From a virus: a stretch of 64,000 nt of DNA. The position numbers were made by a program, and so were the translations under genes. The notes beneath the pieces were generated by a model. That model made no database searches. It was not told where the DNA came from and saw only the letters and a program-made list of their open reading frames with translations. Each line of letters starts with the position of its first letter. Positions within the stretch are counted from its first letter, which is position 1. The DNA is taken from positions 1 through 64,000 of the IMG/VR virus record IMGVR_UViG_3300050034_000403; one strand, 5' to 3'. Below, in pieces: positions 1 to 63,382 of the stretch.

Positions 1-807
1 CCCATGCTGCGGCGGATGCGGCGCCGCTCTACCGAGAACGTGATTGCGGAGATGCTGCACCTGCATGAAGCGTACGGCGTCAGCGCCATCAACTTCTACG
101 ACGACGAGCTGAACGTCAATCCTAACCTTGTAGATTTAATGCGAAGCATTCAATCTACCGGCATTGACTGGCGCCTGCGCGGCTTTGTCCGGTCCGATCT
201 GTTCACGGAGGAGCAGGCCGAGGCCATGTATGCAGCCGGCTTCCGTTGGCTGCTCTGCGGCTTTGAGTCAGCGCATCCACGGATGTTGCGCAACATGAAC
301 AAAAAATCCACCGTGGCCAATAATACCCGCATGTTGCACATCGCTCACCAGCACGGGCTCAAGGTCAAGGCGCTGATGAGCTTTGGCCACCCAGCGGAAT
401 CGGAAGCCACAATCCTGACCACGCGCGACTGGTTGCTTCAGGAAAAGCCCGACGACTTCGACTGCACCATCATCACCACATATCCTGGCTGCGCCTACTA
501 CGACTACGCACGCCTTCAGGAAGATGGCCTTTATGTCTTTGAAACCCACGGGGACAAGCTCTACACGCACGACGTGAACTACGCCACGGATGCCATGTAT
601 TACAAAGGCAAGCCCGGCGACTACAAGTCGTACGTCTGGACCGATGACCTTTCGCCCGAGCGGCTGGTCGAGCTGCGGGATGCGGTGGAGGCAGAAGTGC
701 GGGACAAGCTGAAAATCCCCTTCTATGCCGGTGTGGCAGCTCTTCAGTTCGAGCACTCCATGGGGCAGGGCAATATCCCAGCACAAATCTTACGGAGTTC
801 ACGATAA
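1..807 (+). CDS. Radical SAM-type enzyme, C-terminal part (cut by window edge)
   Basis: The reading frame is open at base 1, so the N-terminus is missing, including any CxxxCxxC iron-sulfur motif. What remains looks like the second half of a radical SAM barrel of the B12-binding/MiaB-like type: INFYDDELN, then FRWLLCGFESAHPRMLRNMNK, then GLKVKALMSFGHPAESEATI, the usual strand-turn pattern of these enzymes. The gene is followed after 17 bases by a glycosyltransferase, which suggests a joint role in modifying a glycan, nucleotide or protein. Family assignment is by pattern only; the substrate cannot be told. An ATG at base 4 is unlikely to be the true start because the fold begins earlier. Confidence 0.7.
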   Translation, partial: PMLRRMRRRSTENVIAEMLHLHEAYGVSAINFYDDELNVNPNLVDLMRSIQSTGIDWRLRGFVRSDLFTEEQAEAMYAAGFRWLLCGFESAHPRMLRNMNKKSTVANNTRMLHIAHQHGLKVKALMSFGHPAESEATILTTRDWLLQEKPDDFDCTIITTYPGCAYYDYARLQEDGLYVFETHGDKLYTHDVNYATDAMYYKGKPGDYKSYVWTDDLSPERLVELRDAVEAEVRDKLKIPFYAGVAALQFEHSMGQGNIPAQILRSSR

Positions 808-824
808 AGTACAGCGGAGGAAGC

Positions 825-1484
825 ATGACAGACTATCGTGCCTATATTTTCCATGTAAACCGCGAAGATCTTCTCCAAAAAGCGGTGGCAAGCGCACGCG
901 ATTTGTGGAAGGAATTAACCGTCGTTGACAATTCCACAAACGGACTTGAAGTGCCGATCCCGTATGTCCACGTGCTTCGCCCTACGGTGCCGCTGACCGC
1001 AATCCAGTCCATTAATTTCGCGATGATGAATACCCGAACACAGGGCGCAAAGATTGCGATCTGGATGCATTCGGACGCTGAAGCCCATCCAGGCTCGTGC
1101 TTGGCTTTGGTGGAGTATGCTCGGCGGATGAATGTCGAAGGACGCAAGTGGGGCACTCTCTTCACCAACTATGACGCTTTGGCAGCGCTGAACACAGAGC
1201 TGATCGACACAGTCGGACTCTGGGATACAACGTTCCACTCCTACTTTGGTGATAACGACTATTACCGTCGTATTCGTCTTGCTGGCTATGAATGCATCGA
1301 TACTGGTATCCCGGTTTACCATACGGCAAGCCAGACCATCAACAGCGACCCAGAACTGCGTTTTCGCAACTCGATCACCTTTCCGTTGTACCAAGCATAT
1401 TACGTTGCCAAGTATGGCGGTTCACCGGGAAATGAAACCTACTCAACGCCTTTCAACCGGCAGGGCAGCACAAACCTCAAGTAG
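825..1484 (+). CDS. Small family 2-like glycosyltransferase
   Basis: The 219-residue protein has the layout of a GT-A glycosyltransferase. A nucleotide-binding first half contains TVVDNSTNG near residue 35. IWMHSDAEAHPG near residue 80 sits where the metal-binding DxD-type motif is expected (here HSDAE). A late GDNDYYRRIRLAGYECI segment resembles the acceptor/catalytic helix of GT2 enzymes. There is no membrane segment. An AGGAAG ribosome-binding site precedes the ATG. It is paired with the radical SAM gene upstream, and the two are probably co-transcribed. Phage GT2 enzymes usually modify host surface glycans, phage DNA or virion proteins; which applies here is unknown. Confidence 0.65.
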   Translation: MTDYRAYIFHVNREDLLQKAVASARDLWKELTVVDNSTNGLEVPIPYVHVLRPTVPLTAIQSINFAMMNTRTQGAKIAIWMHSDAEAHPGSCLALVEYARRMNVEGRKWGTLFTNYDALAALNTELIDTVGLWDTTFHSYFGDNDYYRRIRLAGYECIDTGIPVYHTASQTINSDPELRFRNSITFPLYQAYYVAKYGGSPGNETYSTPFNRQGSTNLK

Positions 1485-1497
1485 CCAAAAACCGTCC

Positions 1498-1537
1498 TTG
1501 ACCGTCTTTAACTCTAAAGCGTTATAATTGGCGCGCC
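1498..1537 (+). promoter_or_regulatory. Leader promoter of array A
   Basis: TTGACC (1498-1503), a 19-base spacer and TATAAT (1523-1528) end nine bases before the first repeat of array A. The same arrangement, with AAAGCGTTATAAT in common, stands at the right end of array C on the other strand (63203-63233). The match outside any gene argues for a conserved CRISPR leader that starts transcription at the array boundary. Confidence 0.7.
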
Positions 1538-1981
1538 ATCACAACGTAGTCAAAGTGCGTCGTAAAGATGCAACAAAGCGCAATAATTTTCTATTTAGGA
1601 GCGTTGCAGTAGCAAAGCAGTCGCAGTGCATCGCACAGATGCAACATTTGCACCACTTGAAAAATGCACAGAATTGGTAGCAGTAAGACAGTTGAAGTGC
1701 ACCGAGCAGGTGCAACACCTGGAACTAATCGACCGTGTAGTCAAAGTGCATCGAACAGATGCAACGTTATGCGCCGTGACTTTGGCCAAAGGAATCACCA
1801 CATAGCAATGCTGTTGAAGTGCATCGGATAGATGCAACCGGCAATTGATCGCAGCAACTTTTGGGGATCTGGAGCACTAGATAGTTAAAGTGCATCGCAT
1901 AGATGCAACTCCATCTTCAGCGCAGTATCGTTGCTGACAGTTCCGTCGCAACGCAGTATGAGTGCATCGAACAGATGCAAC
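1538..1981 (+). CRISPR. CRISPR-like array A, 7 divergent repeats
   Basis: Seven 37-base units end at 1574, 1645, 1716, 1765, 1838, 1909 and 1981. Spacing is 71, 71, 49, 73, 71 and 72 bases, so spacers are mostly 34-36 bases and one is about 12. Each unit ends in a hairpin such as TGCATCGAACAGATGCA followed by AC. No two neighbouring repeats are identical, but the stem is kept. Unit 3 changes both arms (TGCACC/GGTGCA) and unit 1 uses a G-U pair that exists only in plus-strand RNA. The leader lies on the left, so transcription is rightward. The repeats match those of array C in reverse orientation. No cas gene is adjacent. Confidence 0.8.
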
Positions 1982-2717: not shown

Positions 2718-2999
2718 ATGCACACAGATTCAAAATTCGAATGGGCCGATAGAACCAAGGGCATCATTTCCGATCATGCGCGCGGGATGAAGACACTGGC
2801 GATTGCCACAAAATGGAACGTCTCGCGCGCTTGGGTGCTTCAGAACGTTAGCGAAAGCGATTATTACTCCAGAAGTAATAAAAACAAGTATGCTCTACAA
2901 AGAAAAATTCAATTTCAGCTTCTGGAAGAGTATCCGCAGACTTTCAAAGAAATCATGAGCGCCGATCTTCAATCGCCAGGATCTGAATCAAATCGCTAA
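2718..2999 (+). CDS. Small helix-turn-helix-like protein
   Basis: The 93-residue protein starts one base after the preceding stop codon, so the two genes are coupled. Residues 14-40 (GIISDHARGMKTLAIATKWN then VSRAWVLQNV) read like a helix-turn-helix of the resolvase/transposase or sigma-4 type. The rest is helical and polar. Its end overlaps the convergent minus-strand gene by four bases, marking the boundary of the large minus-strand block. It may be a regulator, but no target can be named. Confidence 0.5.
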   Translation: MHTDSKFEWADRTKGIISDHARGMKTLAIATKWNVSRAWVLQNVSESDYYSRSNKNKYALQRKIQFQLLEEYPQTFKEIMSADLQSPGSESNR

Positions 3000-3913
3000 G
3001 CGGCTTCCCCTACCATCCGAAACACGCCCTTGCGCGGGGAACGGCCAGAGTGGCAATTCTCACGAAAGCAGCAAGGGACAGGCCAATCGCAGGTAGAAAG
3101 CTGCGGCTCGGGCAGCGAGTCCAGATTCTGGACTTTTTCGAGTTTGCTGGCCGTCAGATCAAGAATGCGCTGACGCGCCGATTTCTCTGGCACCGGAATC
3201 TCGACGGTAAAGCACAGGTCCTGAAGCACGCCATCATCGAGCATCGCCTGAAGCCAATCGTGGGTCGAAATGTCGTCAAAATCTTCCCGCCAAACTGGAA
3301 GCCAGGTGCTTTTAAAGCCCTCGCTCACATCGTTTTTCTTGCGAAAACGCAGCTTTTTGTTGACCGGATGTCTCAGGCCTCGCGTCCAAGAAGAATGCCG
3401 TTTTCCGCTCCGATTTTGGCCGAGGACAACCACCACTTGCTGCAGTGGTAGGCCATAGGCACAGACAGCACCCATGCTTTGCCAGGAGCGGCACTCGTGG
3501 TAATGGCGATCATCGTTCCAGCTCGATACCAGCACGATGCGGCGCAGATGAAGTCCATCCGGAGAGAGAAAGCACGACGGCTTCCATAGCGGAAGATCTT
3601 CAGGAATCTTCCAAGGTGGTTCGCTTGGTTTGCGGATCGCCGTTGTCACGATGTCGGCAAGGCAGGCAAGATGGGACACTTCAGCGTGCACGTCGTAGCT
3701 GGATGTGGCCAGCCCAGGCTCAACACCAAGGCCATAAACTTGTTCACCAGCCACCTCCCCCCAATCTTTCCGTTCTGCTTCCAGAACTCCTGCTCGCACT
3801 CCCGCTTGGAGCATCTGAATAGCGTCCATTTTGTATCGCTGCCAGGACAGCATCCAGAACGCCATGCGAGAACATTTTTCGAATGCAGTAAGTATTTCAG
3901 CACTTGGTTGCAT
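2996..3913 (-). CDS. Putative PD-(D/E)XK / RecB-like nuclease with Cys cluster
   Basis: The ATG at 3913 was chosen over a GTG at 3922; neither has a strong ribosome-binding site. Near the N-terminus, SAEILTAFEKCSRMAFW resembles the first helix plus first Cys of RecB/Cas4-like nucleases. HLACLADIV and RRIVLVSSWNDDRH...ECRSW could be the core motifs. The C-terminus has CDWPVPCCFRENC, a Cys cluster like the iron-sulfur ligands of that superfamily. The assignment rests on pattern alone and the metal ligands are not certain. It is the last gene of the minus-strand block, after an endonuclease gene. Alternative: an unrelated zinc-binding phage protein. Confidence 0.45.
   Translation of the reverse strand: MQPSAEILTAFEKCSRMAFWMLSWQRYKMDAIQMLQAGVRAGVLEAERKDWGEVAGEQVYGLGVEPGLATSSYDVHAEVSHLACLADIVTTAIRKPSEPPWKIPEDLPLWKPSCFLSPDGLHLRRIVLVSSWNDDRHYHECRSWQSMGAVCAYGLPLQQVVVVLGQNRSGKRHSSWTRGLRHPVNKKLRFRKKNDVSEGFKSTWLPVWREDFDDISTHDWLQAMLDDGVLQDLCFTVEIPVPEKSARQRILDLTASKLEKVQNLDSLPEPQLSTCDWPVPCCFRENCHSGRSPRKGVFRMVGEAA
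3118..3134. repeat. AGTCC palindrome copy 1 (inside a gene)
   Basis: AGTCCAGATTCTGGACT followed by TTTTTCG lies within the coding sequence of the putative nuclease. It differs by one central base from the intergenic copy at 4548-4564, so the element itself, not only the protein sequence, seems to be shared. Confidence 0.55.
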
Positions 3914-4532
3914 ATCGCCCACACACCATAAAAGGTTGCGTTACCGCTTTTTCAACTGGCCATCCTTTTTTCAATCTTTGCCTCAACCTGCTTGACTTAA
4001 TTCCTACAATTCTGGCAAGATCAGTCACAGTTACTTGCAAGCCTTTCCATTCAACGTGCACATTATTGCGCTTGTTATTTTGCTGTTCAGTCCGGGTTGC
4101 CCATCTGCAATTTTCAGGAGTATAGCCTTTATCGTTATCTCTCCTATCCAGCTGCATTCCCTTGGGGCATTCGCCCATGTCTGTTCTAAAGTCGGGGAAT
4201 GACGCACGCCATCTTTCGCATACTCCGATGCCGCGTGCACCATAATACTTAAAATCGGTTCGACGAGGGTTATAGCATCTTCTCATCATATTGAACCACG
4301 CGGAGTATTCAGCTGTGGCTTTTTTGCCTACATATTCTCCATGCACAAGCACCTTTAAAGCTTTGGACATATTATTTTTTGCTTTTTCTGAATGATGGCG
4401 TTTGTGGCCAGCTACATATTTACGCGGTTCTCCGGCTTTTGTTCCATCGCGTTTGCATCCATAGCGAAAAGGAGCCGTCTTTTCTCCGCATCCACATTGG
4501 CAGTATCCGTAAGGTACGCTCGATTCAGACAA
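3897..4532 (-). CDS. HNH-like homing endonuclease
   Basis: The 211-residue protein starts at TTG 4532 after AAGGAG. An N-terminal Cys-rich segment (YCQCGCGEKT) is followed by SAWFNMMRRCYNPRRTDFKY, then YGARGIGVCERW, MQLDRRDNDKGYTPENCRWA and TRTEQQNNKR. This is the signature of a phage mobile HNH-type endonuclease family. A closely similar core is found in the plus-strand gene at 60433-61140. The C-terminus (VTDLARIVGIKSSRLRQRLK) is a helix-turn-helix that probably gives target specificity. The gene sits between an ejection-protein gene and the putative nuclease, overlaps the latter by 17 bases, and is probably a selfish insertion. Confidence 0.75.
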   Translation of the reverse strand: MSESSVPYGYCQCGCGEKTAPFRYGCKRDGTKAGEPRKYVAGHKRHHSEKAKNNMSKALKVLVHGEYVGKKATAEYSAWFNMMRRCYNPRRTDFKYYGARGIGVCERWRASFPDFRTDMGECPKGMQLDRRDNDKGYTPENCRWATRTEQQNNKRNNVHVEWKGLQVTVTDLARIVGIKSSRLRQRLKKGWPVEKAVTQPFMVCGRYATKC

Positions 4533-9602: not shown

Positions 9603-10934
9603 TCAGTGGACAATGCAGACGGGGTCAGGATCGGAGCCTGTCCGATAGAGATCACCCGCCACAAGTCCCCCCGTGATAGCCGCCGCGTTATCGGCGTAGA
9701 CGGACAGGTTGGCAATATTTGGAATGCCAGGGATGATCGTATTGCCCGATGCGTCAAGCAGTGTAAGGCTGTGTACGATTGTGGTGAAGTCATTCGACCC
9801 AGAGTATTGCCGGACATAGATTGGCTCATCGCCATTATCAGCCGTGGCGATCTCCAGATAACCGGCATCAGAGTCTGTGACGCCAACCGCGATTCTTACC
9901 TTGTCAGTGCCCGAGAGGATGTCGCCCTCGACCAGCGTGAGCATCGCGTCTGTTCCCGACAGGCTGTTCAGTGTCTCCTTGGCGATAGCCACAGTGCCCG
10001 CTGTGATCTCCGACTCGACAAACGCCGTTGTCGCGATCTGCGTCGTATCCGTGCCAGCCGTCGCTGTTGGCGCGGTAGGTGTTCCCGTAAGCGCTGGTGA
10101 CGCCAGTGGCGCCAAAAGCGCCAGCTCATCCGACAATCCAGAAATATCGGCAATTGCCGGCTGAGAAAGTTGCGGAACACCATCGGTACTGATCGAGTTG
10201 ATCCACTCATGGCTAACGGCCGCAATGGCCTCCACACCACCCAACGTCGTAAGGGTGGGTGCTGGGATCACAGCGTTTACCGTGACCGCACCCACTCCAC
10301 TGGTGGGTGAAACCGTCACATTGGTTCCAGCAATAATCTGCGTGACCACGCCACCAACAAGCGGAACCAGCTCCGCCCAAAAATCCGTGCCGTCGTAAGC
10401 CACCGTCGCCGCACTACCCTGAGCAACAGGCATGGATGCAGCGGCAAGATTTCCCTGGTACGAAATCGTTCCATCGATCGGTGTCAGTGTCGCTGTGCCA
10501 GCACCAAAATTAAGGAAGACGGCATACCAAGGCACCGTGATTGCAGGGGCAGACGATCCAACGCTCAGTGTAACGGCAATCGCCGAAGCATCATCGAGAA
10601 TAATGAACTTGCCATAATCCGATTGCAACGTGGTGTAGGCCGTCACTCCTGTTTGATCGTTTACGTAGCCAATCGTGGTTGTCGCAGAATTGGTAACAAC
10701 CGTCTGCGTCCCCGTGGACGTACTGCTTGACGTGCTTGTACTCGAACTTGAACTCGAACTCGAACTTGTTGTTGACGTCGTCGCGGCTGTCAACTGGGTT
10801 TTCAAAGACGCGACGGCCTGATTCAAGTCAAGGATTCCCTGGAAGGCGTTGCGGTGCGCAACCTTTGCGCCATCGCTTTCGTTGGCAATCTCCGTTTCAA
10901 ACGGATAGCGAAATGATTCAAGATTGATTGTCAT
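9603..10934 (-). CDS. Tail fibre-like protein
   Basis: The 443-residue protein has a short N-terminal domain (ESFRYPFETEIANESDG), a coiled segment (LDLNQAVASLKTQL) and a striking Ser/Thr linker near residues 53-77. A beta-rich body follows. Around residue 285 comes LASPALTGTPTAPTATAGTD then TTQIATTAFVESEI, a repeat seen in many phage tail fibres. The start codon overlaps the preceding zinc-ribbon gene (ATGA), so the two are translationally coupled. It probably attaches to the nozzle-like protein encoded upstream. Confidence 0.7.
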   Translation of the reverse strand: MTINLESFRYPFETEIANESDGAKVAHRNAFQGILDLNQAVASLKTQLTAATTSTTSSSSSSSSSTSTSSSTSTGTQTVVTNSATTTIGYVNDQTGVTAYTTLQSDYGKFIILDDASAIAVTLSVGSSAPAITVPWYAVFLNFGAGTATLTPIDGTISYQGNLAAASMPVAQGSAATVAYDGTDFWAELVPLVGGVVTQIIAGTNVTVSPTSGVGAVTVNAVIPAPTLTTLGGVEAIAAVSHEWINSISTDGVPQLSQPAIADISGLSDELALLAPLASPALTGTPTAPTATAGTDTTQIATTAFVESEITAGTVAIAKETLNSLSGTDAMLTLVEGDILSGTDKVRIAVGVTDSDAGYLEIATADNGDEPIYVRQYSGSNDFTTIVHSLTLLDASGNTIIPGIPNIANLSVYADNAAAITGGLVAGDLYRTGSDPDPVCIVH

Positions 10935-11047
10935 TTTTGCTTAGCCTTCCAGATCGTGCATTTTGGGCATAAACCGTTCGGAGGCGGAGCGACTTGTATC
11001 GCTCCGCAGCGCGTGCATCGCCGTGCTGTAATCGTGATTTTCCCCAC
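10931..11047 (-). CDS. 38-residue zinc-ribbon protein
   Basis: A GTG at 11047 follows GGAGG by eight bases and starts one base after the previous gene's stop. The product holds two CxxC pairs, CTRC and CPKC, 16 residues apart, as in a minimal zinc ribbon. It is sandwiched between the nozzle-like and fibre genes in a tightly packed operon. It may be a chaperone or assembly factor; this is only inferred from position. Confidence 0.6.
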   Translation of the reverse strand: MGKITITARRCTRCGAIQVAPPPNGLCPKCTIWKAKQK

Positions 11048-11048
11048 T

Positions 11049-14000
11049 CTATCCGCCTCCTCCACTTTCGGCAAAGGGCTGCACTTCCTTGTATTCCCCT
11101 GTCGATCCCCAGTCCTTTGTCTGCACAACAAAGCCTTCCACGTTGAGTTCGAACGGAGCTGTGGAAGTAAATTGGAACCACAGCAGCTTCCACTTGCTCG
11201 GGCCGCAAACAAGTTTCATTTTTGTCAGATCCCCGCCCGACGAGGGAATCGTGATCGCCGGTGGCCCATAGCTGCCGTTGTCCACATCCACCGCATAGCC
11301 TGTCAGCGTAATGGCAGAAGAAGACGAATATTCAACAATCAGAATCGGCCCCAGAGTCTGCCATCCCTTTCCACCAATCGCCGATGTTTGCACAATGGCG
11401 GTTCCGGTTTCTGTGCCGCTGCTGGCTAATTGCCGAATAGTTCCATCGTTGCAACCCACCAGCACTCCCTGCTGGTTCAATCCTTCGTTTGCGGCGTGGA
11501 TCGTCGCCGGCCATTCGTACACATCCCACACCCACCCCTGCGCATTGATGTCATAAACGAGGGTGTGCGGGTCTCCGTCGGTTCCGACGTAGTCGTAGTA
11601 CATGTAGCCGTTCTGAATGCTAAACTTTTGCAACTGCGGCTTCGTATCGTCGGGCGGATAAATTGTCACGCCTTGTCGCGTCACCGGCTGCGGCATGTTG
11701 GTGCCGCCATCCTCATCCTCATGCGGAAACAGCGATTCTAAATCCTGATCCGTAATCGACTTGGATGCACCGCCACCAGGCGAAACGTGAATTCCGTCAT
11801 CCACGCGGAAGAAGATAAGCCCTCCGCCCTCGATCGCCACGCAGCGAGGCATAAACAGCCCACGGTTGATGCTTGTGGCCTGCAAGGTCCAGGTTGATCC
11901 GGTAGTCCCCGTCACGGTAGCCAGCGAGTTGAAGAAGTTGGGCATGATCACCCATGCCCGCCGAATCGAGAACAGCACACCCCGGCCACCAGACATTGCG
12001 CCATTGACCAGAGGTTCACTCGGGTCAGTCACATCCATCTGGTTGGTATCTGGCGCCGCATCAAGATTCGATCCCGAGCACCAATAAAGCGTTCCAGGCC
12101 GCAGTGTATCGCCAACGCCAAAAGTGTAGTTGATGTTGTCTGTTGGGCCGAATTGATATGGCAACGGCTGGTTGGCTAAAATTGGTTCTGAAATCTCGTA
12201 GGCCAGATCGGTTCCGTCAGGAACATCCGGAATCGTAATCTCGTTGACAAAACCGTCAGGAACGACAATTCCCTTGTCCGTAAATGTCACGGTTCCGCTA
12301 ACCGTCGTGCCGCCCGTAGTGCTGAAGGTCGGAGTTATGCTGCCAGAAATTCCCGCAACTGTAACAAGCTGGTAATGGCCATTGGTATCTTCAATCACCC
12401 AGTTCAACGCAAATGCGGTCAAAGATGCAAAAGAACCAGCTGTGGGCCGCGCAATAAACGTATAGGCCAAAGAAGTCGGAGAACCAATCCGGATGATCGT
12501 TCCTGACAGCCAGCGTGTGTTAAATCCAGTGGCCGTTCCTCCAATCGCGCCTCCGCTCACCCAGGTAATCACGCTACCCGAAACCGAGCAAATGCCCTTC
12601 TGCGGCAGATCAATCGAGGGGAAAGGCTCATAGTTGGTGTAAACAAGTACGTCAGTGCCAAGCTCCGTATCCGTCAGCGAATCTGAAACCGGGGTATTTG
12701 TTCCGTCGCCTCCAAGATCGTCATTTGGCCCTGTGCAAACATACGTAAAATCCGTGATGGAGGTATCGACGCGGTAGTAGTCGACCTTATCGACCTGTGG
12801 GTCGTTGGACCAAAGCGATGTGATGGTGTTCGCGGTAACGGGAACAGCTTCTGCCGTCGATTCGGGCGAAGGATTGGAAGTTGCTCCCGTAGCGCTGGAG
12901 CGATACACATAGCGATACTGCACACTTTCCCGGACCTTGGAACTCAAGGGAAGAACAATTGACGGCGTAGTCACGCCAGCCGCCGTTGTTGAGGCAGTTG
13001 GAGACACCATCAAGAGGAGAATGCGGCCAGAATGGTACCAAAAGTCATAGTCAATCTCGATCGTATGAATCGCGGCGGCCGAAAAGTGCAGAACCACAGT
13101 CGTAACCGTGCATTGGCCAGCCTCGTTGTAATAAGTTCCGTCGTATTTCAACGGAGCAACGGGAAGAAGCGCAATACCACTTACCACCGAGATCGTTTGG
13201 CCATAGGAAGAAATCTGCGAGTCAGTCAGCGTGACAGTTCCTGCCACTGTTTCTTCGTTGCCGGTCATGTAGGTTGCTGTAGCCGAAACAACGGTGGGAC
13301 TTCCGCTGATACCCCAAATCGTTTGATCTTTGTTGGTCAGAACAAACTTGTAATATCCCGCTGCCGGAATGTAGATACTTCCAGTCAGGCAGAAGTTGAA
13401 GTTTGTATACGTCGTGCTGGTTGTGTATGTAGACGTAATGGGAGAGGCAAACACGGGGGTTTCACCTTCGACAACGCCCTCTGGGGTCAGCTCGAACCAC
13501 TCCATCGGAACCGTAATATCGCTGATGCCGCTGGAAATATCCACGCCCGGCAATCCTGGGATACCGGCAGCAAGAGCCGGAACCGCCGCCGTTCCAAACG
13601 ACGCATCGAAGATAAAAGAGTTCCCTGTCGTGCTTCCGTCCGCAGTGGACGTCGTACGAGTTGGTCCACTGCCCGCAGAATCGTCTGGATTTTTCCAGAT
13701 ATATGATCCTGTTTGGCCGGATGTCGGAGAATCCCCCCAGTAATAAAGCGTCATCGTGCTAAGAATGGATGTAACTGTTGGCAGTGCATTTGTCGTCACT
13801 GTCACCGTGATGCTAAAAGAGCCAGAATTATCGCTGAACGTGTTCCCTGTCGAGTTGATGCCGATTTGAAAATCCACGGCTGTCGAAGGGACATCAATCG
13901 CTATCGTCAACGTCCCGCCCACGTCAATGATGTTCTGTCGATAGAGCGGTGCGGCTCCGGCAGCAATCACATTGCCGTCTCCATCCGTAAATGCTCCGAT

Positions 14001-45539: not shown

Positions 45540-45637
45540 TTTTTCAGAACAGGAATAGCCTGTATGTCTTGTTCATGCGGGCTATTCTTTATCACTATTC
45601 AGAAATTTTCAGGGCAAAAAAGCTGAGCATGGCTAAT

Positions 45638-46262
45638 GTTGCGTCTATTCGGCGCACTGTAGAAGCTGTTTGATTGTTGCGCTTATCCAGCGCACTATGA
45701 CTATCTTGCAACCTTTTTATAGCCAAAAAGCCGTGATGATTCTCGTGTTGCATCTACTCGATGCACTGAAACTGCCTTGTGACTTTGTGCTATTCCTTGA
45801 CGCGTTGCGCTTTCTCGGCGCACTCATACGTCTATAAATATCCCTTGTGTATTATTGCGCTTATTCAGTGTATTGTTGCGCTTATCCAGCGCACTCCTAC
45901 TTTGTCGCACATGTTGCATCTCTCCGATGCACTTTGACTGTACACCCCTACCTATCCATGTTGCATCTGCTCGATGCACTCATACTGTGCTCCTCAACCT
46001 ATCCATGTTGCGCCTATGCGGTGCACTGAAACCGCATTACTGCGAAATCCAAGGCTCACGTACGTTGCATCTTCTCGATGCACTTCAACCAGTCTGCTAT
46101 ACAGCAGACAAAAACGAATGCCAATGGAGGTTGCATCTGTTCGATGCACTCATACGGATTTGGTACGGGATGCTGTTGTTGCGCTTATCCAGCGCACTAG
46201 AACATCTTGTCAGCTCATTCTTCAGGTTGCGCCTGCTCGACGCACTCATATGACACCTCAAT
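45638..46262 (-). CRISPR. CRISPR-like array B, degraded (about 13 units)
   Basis: Units in the plus-strand reading start at 45638, 45676, 45747, 45804, 45854, 45875, 45913, 45960, 46007, 46064, 46130, 46178 and 46226. Spacing is irregular (38, 71, 57, 50, 21, 38, 47, 47, 57, 66, 48, 48), so spacers range from none to 34 bases. Only the hairpin and the following CACT are well kept; for example TGCGCT and AGCGCA pair at 45676, 45875 and 46178. The repeat family is the same as in arrays A and C. The array looks collapsed by deletions. A weak leader with TTGACA and CAAAG lies on the right. Confidence 0.7.
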
Positions 46263-46299: not shown

Positions 46300-46827
46300 T
46301 TAGCTCCGCGATGCCAGAATTTTGGTTGCCTCAGTCAATGTAATCATAAGCGTTTGTGGATTGATCGGCGAAGCGATGAAGCCGTATTTCTCGTAGAACT
46401 GTTTTGCATCCTTAGAAATTGCATTTACCAAAACCGCACGAATGCCGGCAATCTCAGCAGCCTGCAAAGTGCGCAAAACCGCATCCCGCAAAAGATCCGC
46501 CCCAATCCCGCGATGCTGAAAGTGTTCATCCACAGCCAGTCGTCCGATCAGCATCACGGGCACTGGATCGGGCATGTTGCGCTTGATGCGTGTGGGTGCC
46601 TCGACATGTGCCACAGCACCAGTCGCCAGCGCATAAAAACCAACGACATGACCTTCTGAGCACACCACTTTAGTACGCGATGCTCCATTCTTCTCGTTTT
46701 GAAGTGCCCGCGTCTTCAACCACAGATTGAGAGATGATTCGCCACAGCAGAATTGCGTAAGATCATGTTCCACTGTCAGCTTTTCTGGAGCGGTAATACG
46801 GATCTTGGACGCCTCTACTCCTCCCAC
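46300..46827 (-). CDS. GNAT acetyltransferase toxin (TacT-like)
   Basis: The 175-residue protein has a GNAT fold: LTVEHDLTQFCCGESSLNLW, VVGFYALATGAVAHVEAPTR, then VPVMLIGRLAVDEHFQHRGI with the acetyl-CoA loop QHRGIGADLL, and AVLVNAISKDAKQFYEKYGF near the end. GNAT toxins of this type acetylate charged tRNA. Its partner, a DUF1778 protein, is encoded just upstream with a 13-base overlap. The module lies next to array B. Confidence 0.85.
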   Translation of the reverse strand: MGGVEASKIRITAPEKLTVEHDLTQFCCGESSLNLWLKTRALQNEKNGASRTKVVCSEGHVVGFYALATGAVAHVEAPTRIKRNMPDPVPVMLIGRLAVDEHFQHRGIGADLLRDAVLRTLQAAEIAGIRAVLVNAISKDAKQFYEKYGFIASPINPQTLMITLTEATKILASRS

Positions 46828-47099
46828 GATGGTTTCCTCGCTAGCAGCTTTGCCAGTTTTGGGTTGGACTTGGGAGGATTGTCTAGCATGTCATTGAAGC
46901 GTTGGAACTCTTCTTTCCCGAGACGGAAGTAGCAGCGATCAAGCAAAATCGCTTCCGCTTCCCTGCACGCCGCATCCAGCATGAAATCCGTGCGGTTCCT
47001 TCCCAGCACTTCTGCTGCACTATCAATTAATGTCTTTTGCCGCAGATTGGCACGCAAATTGATGTTCGTAGCCCGCAATTCAGCAACGACAGAACCCAT
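46815..47099 (-). CDS. DUF1778 RHH antitoxin (TacA-like)
   Basis: The ATG at 47099 follows GGAGG. The 94-residue protein (RATNINLRANLRQKTLIDSA, AEVLGRNRTDFMLDAACREA) is a DUF1778 ribbon-helix-helix antitoxin. The C-terminal part (LDNPPKSNPKLAKLLARKPS) is the toxin-neutralising tail. It normally represses its operon and binds the GNAT toxin encoded downstream. Confidence 0.85.
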   Translation of the reverse strand: MGSVVAELRATNINLRANLRQKTLIDSAAEVLGRNRTDFMLDAACREAEAILLDRCYFRLGKEEFQRFNDMLDNPPKSNPKLAKLLARKPSWEE

Positions 47100-47161
47100 G
47101 ACCCACCTCCTGAATGTATACACAATGAGCGTACAGCATCGTGCGCACAATGTAAAGCGCC

Positions 47162-61891: not shown

Positions 61892-63195
61892 GTTGCATCT
61901 ATGCGATGCACTTCAACTGCATTGCTACCGATATGGTAGCGCTGTCGCTACGGATTTCGCGTTGCACTTATCCAGTGCACTTCAACTGCATTACTACGCT
62001 GGTGGGTCCTTGTAAGTTGCATCTACGCGATGCACTCAAACTGCTTTGATGCTTGCTACCTTTTGGCACATTTCCATTTTTCCAGTAGTTGCATCTATGC
62101 GATGCACTGAGACTATTTTGCGACACGGAGTTGAATCAAGAAGCAATAAGCCTGTTGCATCTATGCGATGCACTTTGACTGCTTTGCTATCCCACTAATA
62201 AGCCTTTGCAGGATCATTTTCCCAGTTGCATCTGCTCGATGCACTTTAACTACCTTGCGACCATGTGAGAATGCTGGTGGCTCTCTCTTGACGAAGTTGC
62301 ATCTGCTCGATGCACTCAAACTACATTGCGACACGGCTACGGAAGCCGTCTTGCTGCTGCTATGAATGTTGCATCTGTTCGATGCACTTTAACTACCTTG
62401 CGACGACTGTTTATGCTTTTGAACTCACACACTACGACCGTTGCATCTGTTCGATGCACTGAAACTACATTGCGACAGCAGAAAAAATCGAGAAATGATT
62501 CCGATACCATGTTGCATCTGCTCGATGCACTGAAACTACCTTGCGACGAAACCTGGAAAACCTGTCCACCGGGACCGTAATAGTTGCATCTGCTCGATGC
62601 ACTAAAACTATCTTGCGACGTTCGACTTCAGCCAAGAGAGACATGACCGCGAGTGTTGCATCTGTTCGATGCACTTAAACTATCTTGCGACCCTATAATT
62701 TGTCCAGACACTAGCGTCCACAACCGTTGCATCTGTTCGATGCACTGAAACTGCCTTGCGACGCATGTACTCCCAAAGCGTGTACTCTTGATGCAAGTTG
62801 CATCTGTTCGATGCACTGAAACTACATTGCGGCTTGGTGAGCCCTTGGAAAGTGTTAGCAGGTCATCAAGGTTGCATCTGTTCAATGCACTGAAACTATC
62901 TTGCGGCATGATCGAGCAGTTGAGCAATACAAGGTGCGATACGCGTTGCATCTGTTCGATGCACTTTAACTACCTTGCGACACGAAATTGCGGGACTCTT
63001 TTACCAGGTGATGGATGTTGCATCTGTTCGATGCACTGAAACTACATTGCGACCTAAACATCACCATGCAGGACAAGCTCGACCTCCAGTTGCATCTGTT
63101 CGATGCACTGAAACTACATTGTGACTCGCCACCTTCGGAAGAAACAAGAAGACCAGAAGTTGCATCTGTTCGATGCACTGAAACTACATTGCGGC
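61892..63195 (-). CRISPR. CRISPR array C, 19 repeats, 18 spacers
   Basis: 37-base repeats start at 61892, 61961, 62016, 62088, 62154, 62225, 62296, 62368, 62440, 62511, 62583, 62655, 62726, 62797, 62871, 62945, 63017, 63089 and 63159. Period is 69-74 except at the left end (55 and 66). Spacers are 18-37 bases, mostly 34-35, and all different. In the inferred RNA sense (minus strand) the repeat starts GTCGCAATGTAGTTTCAG and ends with hairpin TGCATCGAACAGATGCA plus AC. Right-hand repeats are nearly uniform; the leftmost seven are increasingly divergent, so the growth end is at the right, beside a leader promoter. No cas gene is adjacent. Confidence 0.95.
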
Positions 63196-63233: not shown

Positions 63234-63382
63234 GGACGTTTTTCGCGAACCTCGCAAATCTGCGCTCTTCTAGTTGGGATGCTCGATACAATGCCCTCAT
63301 TATCTCCTTCAAAATCATTTTCTTACGCCTTGCGCGAACCTCCCGCCTTTTTCCGGCCGCTTAGGGTTCGCGGAAAACCAGC
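63234..63382. other. Non-coding leader-distal segment
   Basis: Between the leader promoter and the endolysin stop. It is A/T-rich with no open frame of protein-like composition. The repeated TTCGCGAACCT / TTGCGCGAACCT words could be part of a leader or terminator for the endolysin gene. Confidence 0.3.

Follow-up and report, generated by a model that had tools for sequence, protein, structure and literature searches.

An apparently closed, diverged CRISPR array with a maintained handle in a soil phage, probably belonging to a type V-M-like (Cas12m-like) system

The closest described systems are those of type V-M (formerly V-U1), whose Cas12m effectors include Cas12m2 and GoCas12m. In Cas12m2, a G:A pair of the RNA scaffold sits on a 6-bp helix, C(-1) is read by His269-Arg270, the guide forms a 17-bp heteroduplex, and the PAM is T-rich and located on the 5' side (PMC10442227). 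Cas12m PAMs are T/C-rich, and Cas12m proteins with D-E-D, H-D-D or N-D-D triads fail to cut dsDNA (PMC11013384). CRISPR arrays have also been described in huge phages (Al-Shayeb et al. 2020, PMC7162821); the portion of that report considered here presents them as compact, lacking Cas1 and Cas2 and carrying spacers against other phages, and reports new type V-U variants.

Here we analysed a window of 64,000 nucleotides, positions 1-64,000 of an 89,228-bp soil-phage contig (IMG/VR IMGVR_UViG_3300050034_000403; hereafter G000) with virus genes for a terminase, a head protein and a primase-helicase, the latter (G000 78498-81158; L010 2498-5158) apparently split by an intein-like insertion. Array A (1538-1981, plus strand) consists of seven 37-nt units, each one distinct in sequence:

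1538-1574, plus strand: unit 1; handle at 1554-1574, stem with one G-U pair
1609-1645, plus strand: unit 2
1680-1716, plus strand: unit 3; compensated stem TGCACC/GGTGCA, next unit only 12 nt away
1729-1765, plus strand: unit 4
1802-1838, plus strand: unit 5
1873-1909, plus strand: unit 6
1945-1981, plus strand: unit 7; guide from 1982 to about 1998

The unit-to-unit spacings of 71, 71, 49, 73, 71 and 72 nt agree with a first-pass annotation of this DNA, which had listed seven 37-base units at mostly 71-73-base spacing. It had also stated that every copy is different and forms the same hairpin, and indeed 7 of 7 units share a common fold of a 6-bp stem, a 5-nt loop and a 3' AC; judged from the sequence, the constraint in array A falls on this 21-nt handle and not on the whole repeat. 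The annotation further called array A a second array, on the opposite strand and 60 kb from array C. Strand and distance are correct, but the array is not just the second, as the same repeat forms at least five arrays on the contig, with more than 50 units altogether. The others are:

45638-46262, minus strand: array B; irregularly spaced units whose handles are strongly diversified, mostly with compensated stems (TGCGCT/AGCGCA and others)
61892-63195, minus strand: array C; composed of 19 units, those at the leader (right) end having near-identical repeats
66481-67222, minus strand: array D; same repeat
88621-89228, minus strand: array E; extends into the contig end

A CRISPR array usually shows near-identical repeats with unique spacers between them and the newest units beside the leader, a pattern found in array C and in the arrays of L175, G030, G001 and G003. 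The repeats of array A have a mean pairwise identity of 0.72, with no two identical, and we therefore class it within this repeat family as an array that has diverged and is closed. Its units are CRISPR repeats. A pattern scan of IMG/VR located the repeat in 15 further phage contigs, many of them with multiple arrays, and in contigs binned with Acidobacteriaceae; single isolated units also exist. Rfam applied to the window yielded no CRISPR family and matched only a tRNA. Radical SAM protein and glycosyltransferase-like genes lie immediately left of array A (window 4-1484). Another neighbour, a conserved 308-aa protein (window 2996-3922), is also present in array-less relatives; it had no match in Pfam or PHROG and displays, by eye only, a CPRK-type motif and clustered cysteines like those of Cas4/RecB-like iron-sulphur nucleases. 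Adjoining array B is a pair of genes for a GNAT acetyltransferase and a TacA-type antitoxin (window 46300-47150).

The 21-nt handle is composed of A-G, a 6-bp stem, a 5-nt loop and A-C. With up to three mismatches allowed, its pattern AGTGCATCGNNNAGATGCAAC occurs 33 times in the window, compared to 0.09 occurrences expected from shuffles, and seven of these 33 constitute array A. Across 170 distinct repeats of the family, the final 21 nt are nearly fixed and the initial 16 nt variable, with A17, G18, A36 and C37 identical in 168-170 of the 170 units. The stem is paired in 97.5% of cells, against at most 51.5% once the partner is slid. Double changes affect 23 of its cells; shuffles give 5.4 +/- 1.9, and none of 500 reaches 23. 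As the folding z-scores of single array A units are modest (only -0.75 to -2.5), the evidence for structure lies in this covariation and in the invariant handle, not in single-unit energy. Relative to the modal repeat of array C, the 5' 16 nt of array A (SPECIFICALLY) carry changes at 46 of 112 positions, the handle, loop excluded, at only 3 of 126 (Fisher p 1.8e-14); all stems affected by these three changes are still paired. Since units were detected by their handle, one with a ruined handle would escape, but the regular spacing of array A leaves no space for one. Handle-sparing drift is also seen in the leaderless arrays B and D and in arrays of G003, G005 and G009.

Arrays A and C differ in their leaders:

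1498-1528, plus strand: promoter-like core of the array A leader, read from sequence; TTGACC at 1498-1503, 19 nt, TATAAT at 1523-1528
63244-63251, minus strand: array C leader box GGTTCGCG, at -56 from the first repeat
63333-63340, minus strand: array C leader box GGTTCGCG, at -145
63365-63372, plus strand: array C leader box GGTTCGCG, at -177

The two leaders are homologous down to TATAAT (local score 58, maximum 34 in 2000 shuffles); a promoter scan, which allows 16-18 nt spacing, did not pick the core of array A. In the boxed leader, GGTTCGCG forms an inverted pair 32 bp apart (CGCGAACC-24 nt-GGTTCGCG) and recurs as a direct copy 88-89 bp further towards the array. Boxes at about -177/-145/-56 are present in array C of G000 and in G001, G016, G017, G030 and L175, and shortened versions in G003 and L086. 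Within 240 nt of array A there is no GGTTCGCG box, only the promoter-like piece being kept. Among 24 arrays, fresh leader-end repeats (averaging at least 33/37 identical) were found in 9 of 9 with a box (at least 7/8 bases matching within 80 nt) and in 0 of 15 without (p 7.6e-7); dropping two duplicated arrays leaves 8 versus 14. The box was spotted post hoc from the leaders, and L175, the sole untouched check, confirmed it. As far as the fragments cover, each boxed genome has one boxed leader, and the cas12m-adjacent arrays of G004 and G016 are without one.

Because the array A locus carries a full boxed leader in G001, G016 and G017, we read it as a former growing array, which probably lost its leader in the line to the G000 phage, where array C now has it. 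The proposal of the first-pass annotation that array A has been kept without recent acquisition is supported, and the likely cause is that diverged-repeat arrays, A included, are without a boxed leader; on the sequence evidence, growth of array A would have stopped through leader loss. In close relatives, the guides of arrays B and D are unchanged, and array C has one unit missing and one replaced, both internal to the array; array E has its trailer end in common with G004 and differs in the leader-near part. A block of array B (window 45600-45830), including one 20-nt guide common to G000, G006, G010 and G015, is near-unchanged in G010 (L066 11330-11500), G006 and G015. As these three phages have no long DNA homology with G000 and the block comes with neighbouring sequence, exchange by recombination is indicated, which suggests that array pieces can move between phages.

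A candidate effector is encoded next to the arrays of relatives: in G003, G004, G013, G016, G030, L175 and one Acidobacteriaceae MAG contig, an array is immediately preceded, on its own strand, by a Cas12 gene (in G004, gene 10321-12603, array from 12706). These proteins measure 745-760 aa. Among PADLOC profiles they score highest with Cas12u1/V-U1 (best 1.4e-29) and with a Cas12f-named model of equal length (2.1e-31), and a profile search against the PDB placed Cas12m first (8.7e-14), with UnCas12m4a at 2.4e-12. In a fold comparison with an AlphaFold model built from eight sequences, the best four matches were all Cas12m (3e-18 to 4e-16), followed by weaker ones to Cas12f (1e-11), CasLambda (1e-7) and CasPhi (2e-6); given its moderate quality (pLDDT 72, pTM 0.39) and low TM-scores, we used this model for ranking alone. 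The first model, from five sequences, was of too poor quality and was discarded. By profiles, fold ranking and handle layout, the effector thus appears nearest to Cas12m (type V-M). We name the system V-M-like, as the effector, at 745-760 aa, is longer than the ~600 aa of known Cas12m, a size that is usual rather than strictly required. A conserved His-Arg before Leu-Pro aligns with the His-Arg with which Cas12m2 reads C(-1). The RuvC triads of five aligned members are D/E/D in G004, G030 and G016, E/E/D in G003 and D/E/N in the Acidobacteriaceae MAG. From the behaviour of the Cas12m family and from the variation of these triads among close homologues, we infer that the effector binds DNA without cutting it; with the D/E/D triad intact in three of the five members, it could also cut.

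We did not find cas12m on the 89-kb G000 contig. Synteny of G000 88298-89228 with G004 14309-13382 predicts that the phage's own cas12m sits ~0.8 kb beyond the contig end. None of five Cas12m-less relatives of 121-138 kb (G018, G019, G021, G023, G029) has arrays, and G016 (132,674 bp) has cas12m and arrays together. Relatives without any hairpin at the array A site had been named by the first-pass annotation as contrary evidence; this was seen only in a relative that itself lacks cas12m, G021, whose site is an empty gap of ~76 nt. In G001, G012 and G017, all three fragments, arrays were seen but no cas12m. Cas1 was absent from the 12 phage records searched. A single handle-like unit is located directly before the cas12m start codon in G004 (L040 10261-10320), where its stem is compensated, and in G030 (L076 2106-2184); possibly it serves autoregulation of cas12m. 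The Acidobacteriaceae genome G177 carries a cas12m relative (L182 11893-14352) inside a 476-kb bacterial contig, together with a three-unit degenerate array that differs in its handle stem (AGTGGCTCG...AGAGTCAAC).

The spacers are unique and 33-36 nt long. Seven of them match related phages with at most 6 mismatches in 30, a level reached by none of the reversed controls, and YYC is found on the 5' side in five of these seven strong protospacers, a small sample. Unit 62655 of array C matches G010, and unit 6764 of the A locus in G001 matches G006, each adjoining TTC; in array C, one spacer has a strong and one a weak match to a related phage. Spacer matches to mobile elements come from array C, the A locus of G001, and L086. 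For the array A guides of G000, we obtained no convincing target among related phages, nothing in exact IMG/VR scans with three of them, and nothing in a distant search of the phage collection. No guide at the A locus is common to any of G000, G001, G012, G016 and G017; the guides of array A are hence not fixed lineage-wide, differing as they do at this locus in every relative seen. A relative close enough to test the stability of array A was not found, even with a leader-pattern search. G004 and G012 have one 17-nt guide in common (ATGAAGATTCCCAGTTG), after which their sequences diverge, which fits an effective guide of 17 nt. At unit 7 of array A, the flank in common with G012 begins ~17 nt past the handle. 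Searches for self-targeting returned one guide at 3 mismatches of 20, the remainder being near shuffled guides. Two candidates were rejected: an apparent conserved guide of G003, G004 and G030, which has wobble-position differences as in coding sequence and overlaps a G003 frame start, and the match found in G001 for the final unit of G003, which represents flank homology instead of a protospacer.

One can ask whether array A is simply a dead relic that lost its leader, decays neutrally and has no function. The missing boxed leader, the divergence of all repeats, one shortened guide and the lack of identified targets would all be expected of such a relic. However, neutral decay fits poorly with changes that avoid the handle (3/126 versus 46/112) and leave the changed stems paired; moreover, the promoter-like core persists, and the leaderless arrays B, D and those of G003, G005 and G009 have the same handle-sparing pattern. 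We therefore consider a relic rather unlikely, and the maintenance of the handle makes working guides in array A likely. The first-pass annotation had envisaged fixed guide-RNA genes, which in this case would direct Cas12m to conserved genes of the host or of phages, for regulation, not defence. The constrained handle, the 17-nt guide in G004 and G012, the 20-nt array B guide in four phages and the existence of single isolated units are in line with this idea. Fixity of the guides across relatives finds no support, since those of array A have no counterpart at the same locus in G001, G012, G016 and G017. Self-matches are almost absent, the array B guide travels with neighbouring sequence as in recombination, and a third shared guide, which overlaps a reading-frame start in G003, is explicable as coding, so that fixed regulatory genes seem unlikely overall.

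Another explanation is that the arrays are cas-less and served by a host effector, such as the Cas12m of Acidobacteriaceae, rather than by one encoded in the phage. The 89-kb contig without cas12m, the gene beside a degenerate array in G177, and the arrays of the fragmentary G001, G012 and G017 would be compatible with this. Yet synteny with G004 puts cas12m just past the G000 contig end, the handle in the G177 contig differs, and near-complete relatives without cas12m have no arrays, making a host effector quite improbable. Finally, the dispersal of hairpin repeats over the phage genome and the inverted repeats of the active leaders might point to structural RNA or DNA sites for packaging, replication or recombination instead of CRISPR. 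Such sites would hardly account for unique spacers of 33-36 nt, for protospacers in related phages with a common 5' motif, or for a Cas12 gene that adjoins the arrays and co-occurs with them; we find a non-CRISPR origin scarcely credible and rejected packaging or replication repeats.

We thus favour, with a probability of roughly 0.74, a reading in which array A, orphaned and closed to growth but with its guides maintained, belongs to a type V-M-like (Cas12m-like) system carried by the phage. Array A would be transcribed rightwards (plus strand), from the promoter just left of it, into a precursor of which Cas12m would bind each 21-nt handle; the ~17 nt following the handle would then guide Cas12m to DNA beside a 5' pyrimidine-pyrimidine-C motif, where the bound protein would block transcription or replication, mostly in rival phages. 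One array per genome (C in G000, the A locus in G001, G016 and G017) would take new repeats via its full boxed leader, while leaderless arrays like A would stop growing and their repeats would drift, save for the handle recognised by Cas12m. The most likely function of array A would be to provide crRNAs for Cas12m-type DNA binding against rival phages, defence being favoured since the targets that could be identified lie in phages; a role as fixed regulatory guides is also conceivable. More tentatively, and with the odds somewhat against it, the arrays could represent a two-tier guide store, in which one array with an inverted-repeat leader gains units without a phage Cas1 and the scattered closed, leaderless arrays and single units are preserved one by one as permanent guide genes for a Cas12m that binds DNA; units would pass between arrays and phages by recombination. 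Through natural variation, handle-sparing drift separates the part of a repeat that guide use requires from the part that serves only array growth, and the boxed leader offers a concrete starting point on how phage arrays without Cas1 gain spacers. If true, a phage that combines many guides with an effector limited to binding would possess a natural multi-target repressor for use in phage competition.

Phage-borne Cas12 proteins of similar length are also represented by CasPhi (Cas12j) and CasLambda, whose repeats end, as here, in a hairpin followed by AC. Their fold matches (2e-6 for CasPhi, 1e-7 for CasLambda), however, are far weaker than that of Cas12m (3e-18). With type V-M, the present system has in common the profile and fold matches of the effector, the aligned His-Arg, the T/C-rich 5' PAM, the lack of a detected Cas1, and a Cas12m-type effector that adjoins the array in relatives and, as predicted by synteny, in G000; the handle, too, is alike in its A-G, 6-bp stem and A-C (scaffold positions matched to PMC10442227). 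It departs from type V-M in an effector of 745-760 aa instead of ~600, in a 5-nt loop, in its location in phages with genomes up to ~133 kb and several scattered arrays each, in repeats that drift save for the handle, and in a leader with a GGTTCGCG inverted repeat. Compared to the type V-U/V-F systems of huge phages (PMC7162821), as far as the portion of that report considered here describes them, G000 stands out by its multiple arrays, over 50 units lying on a single contig; that portion makes no mention of closed arrays or of repeats constrained in the handle alone. Measured against the same portion, arrays lacking Cas1/Cas2 and variants of type V-U were already known from phages (PMC7162821), and what appears new is the many-array layout for a Cas12m-like effector, repeat drift from which the handle alone is exempt, and an inverted-repeat leader as the mark of arrays with fresh repeats.
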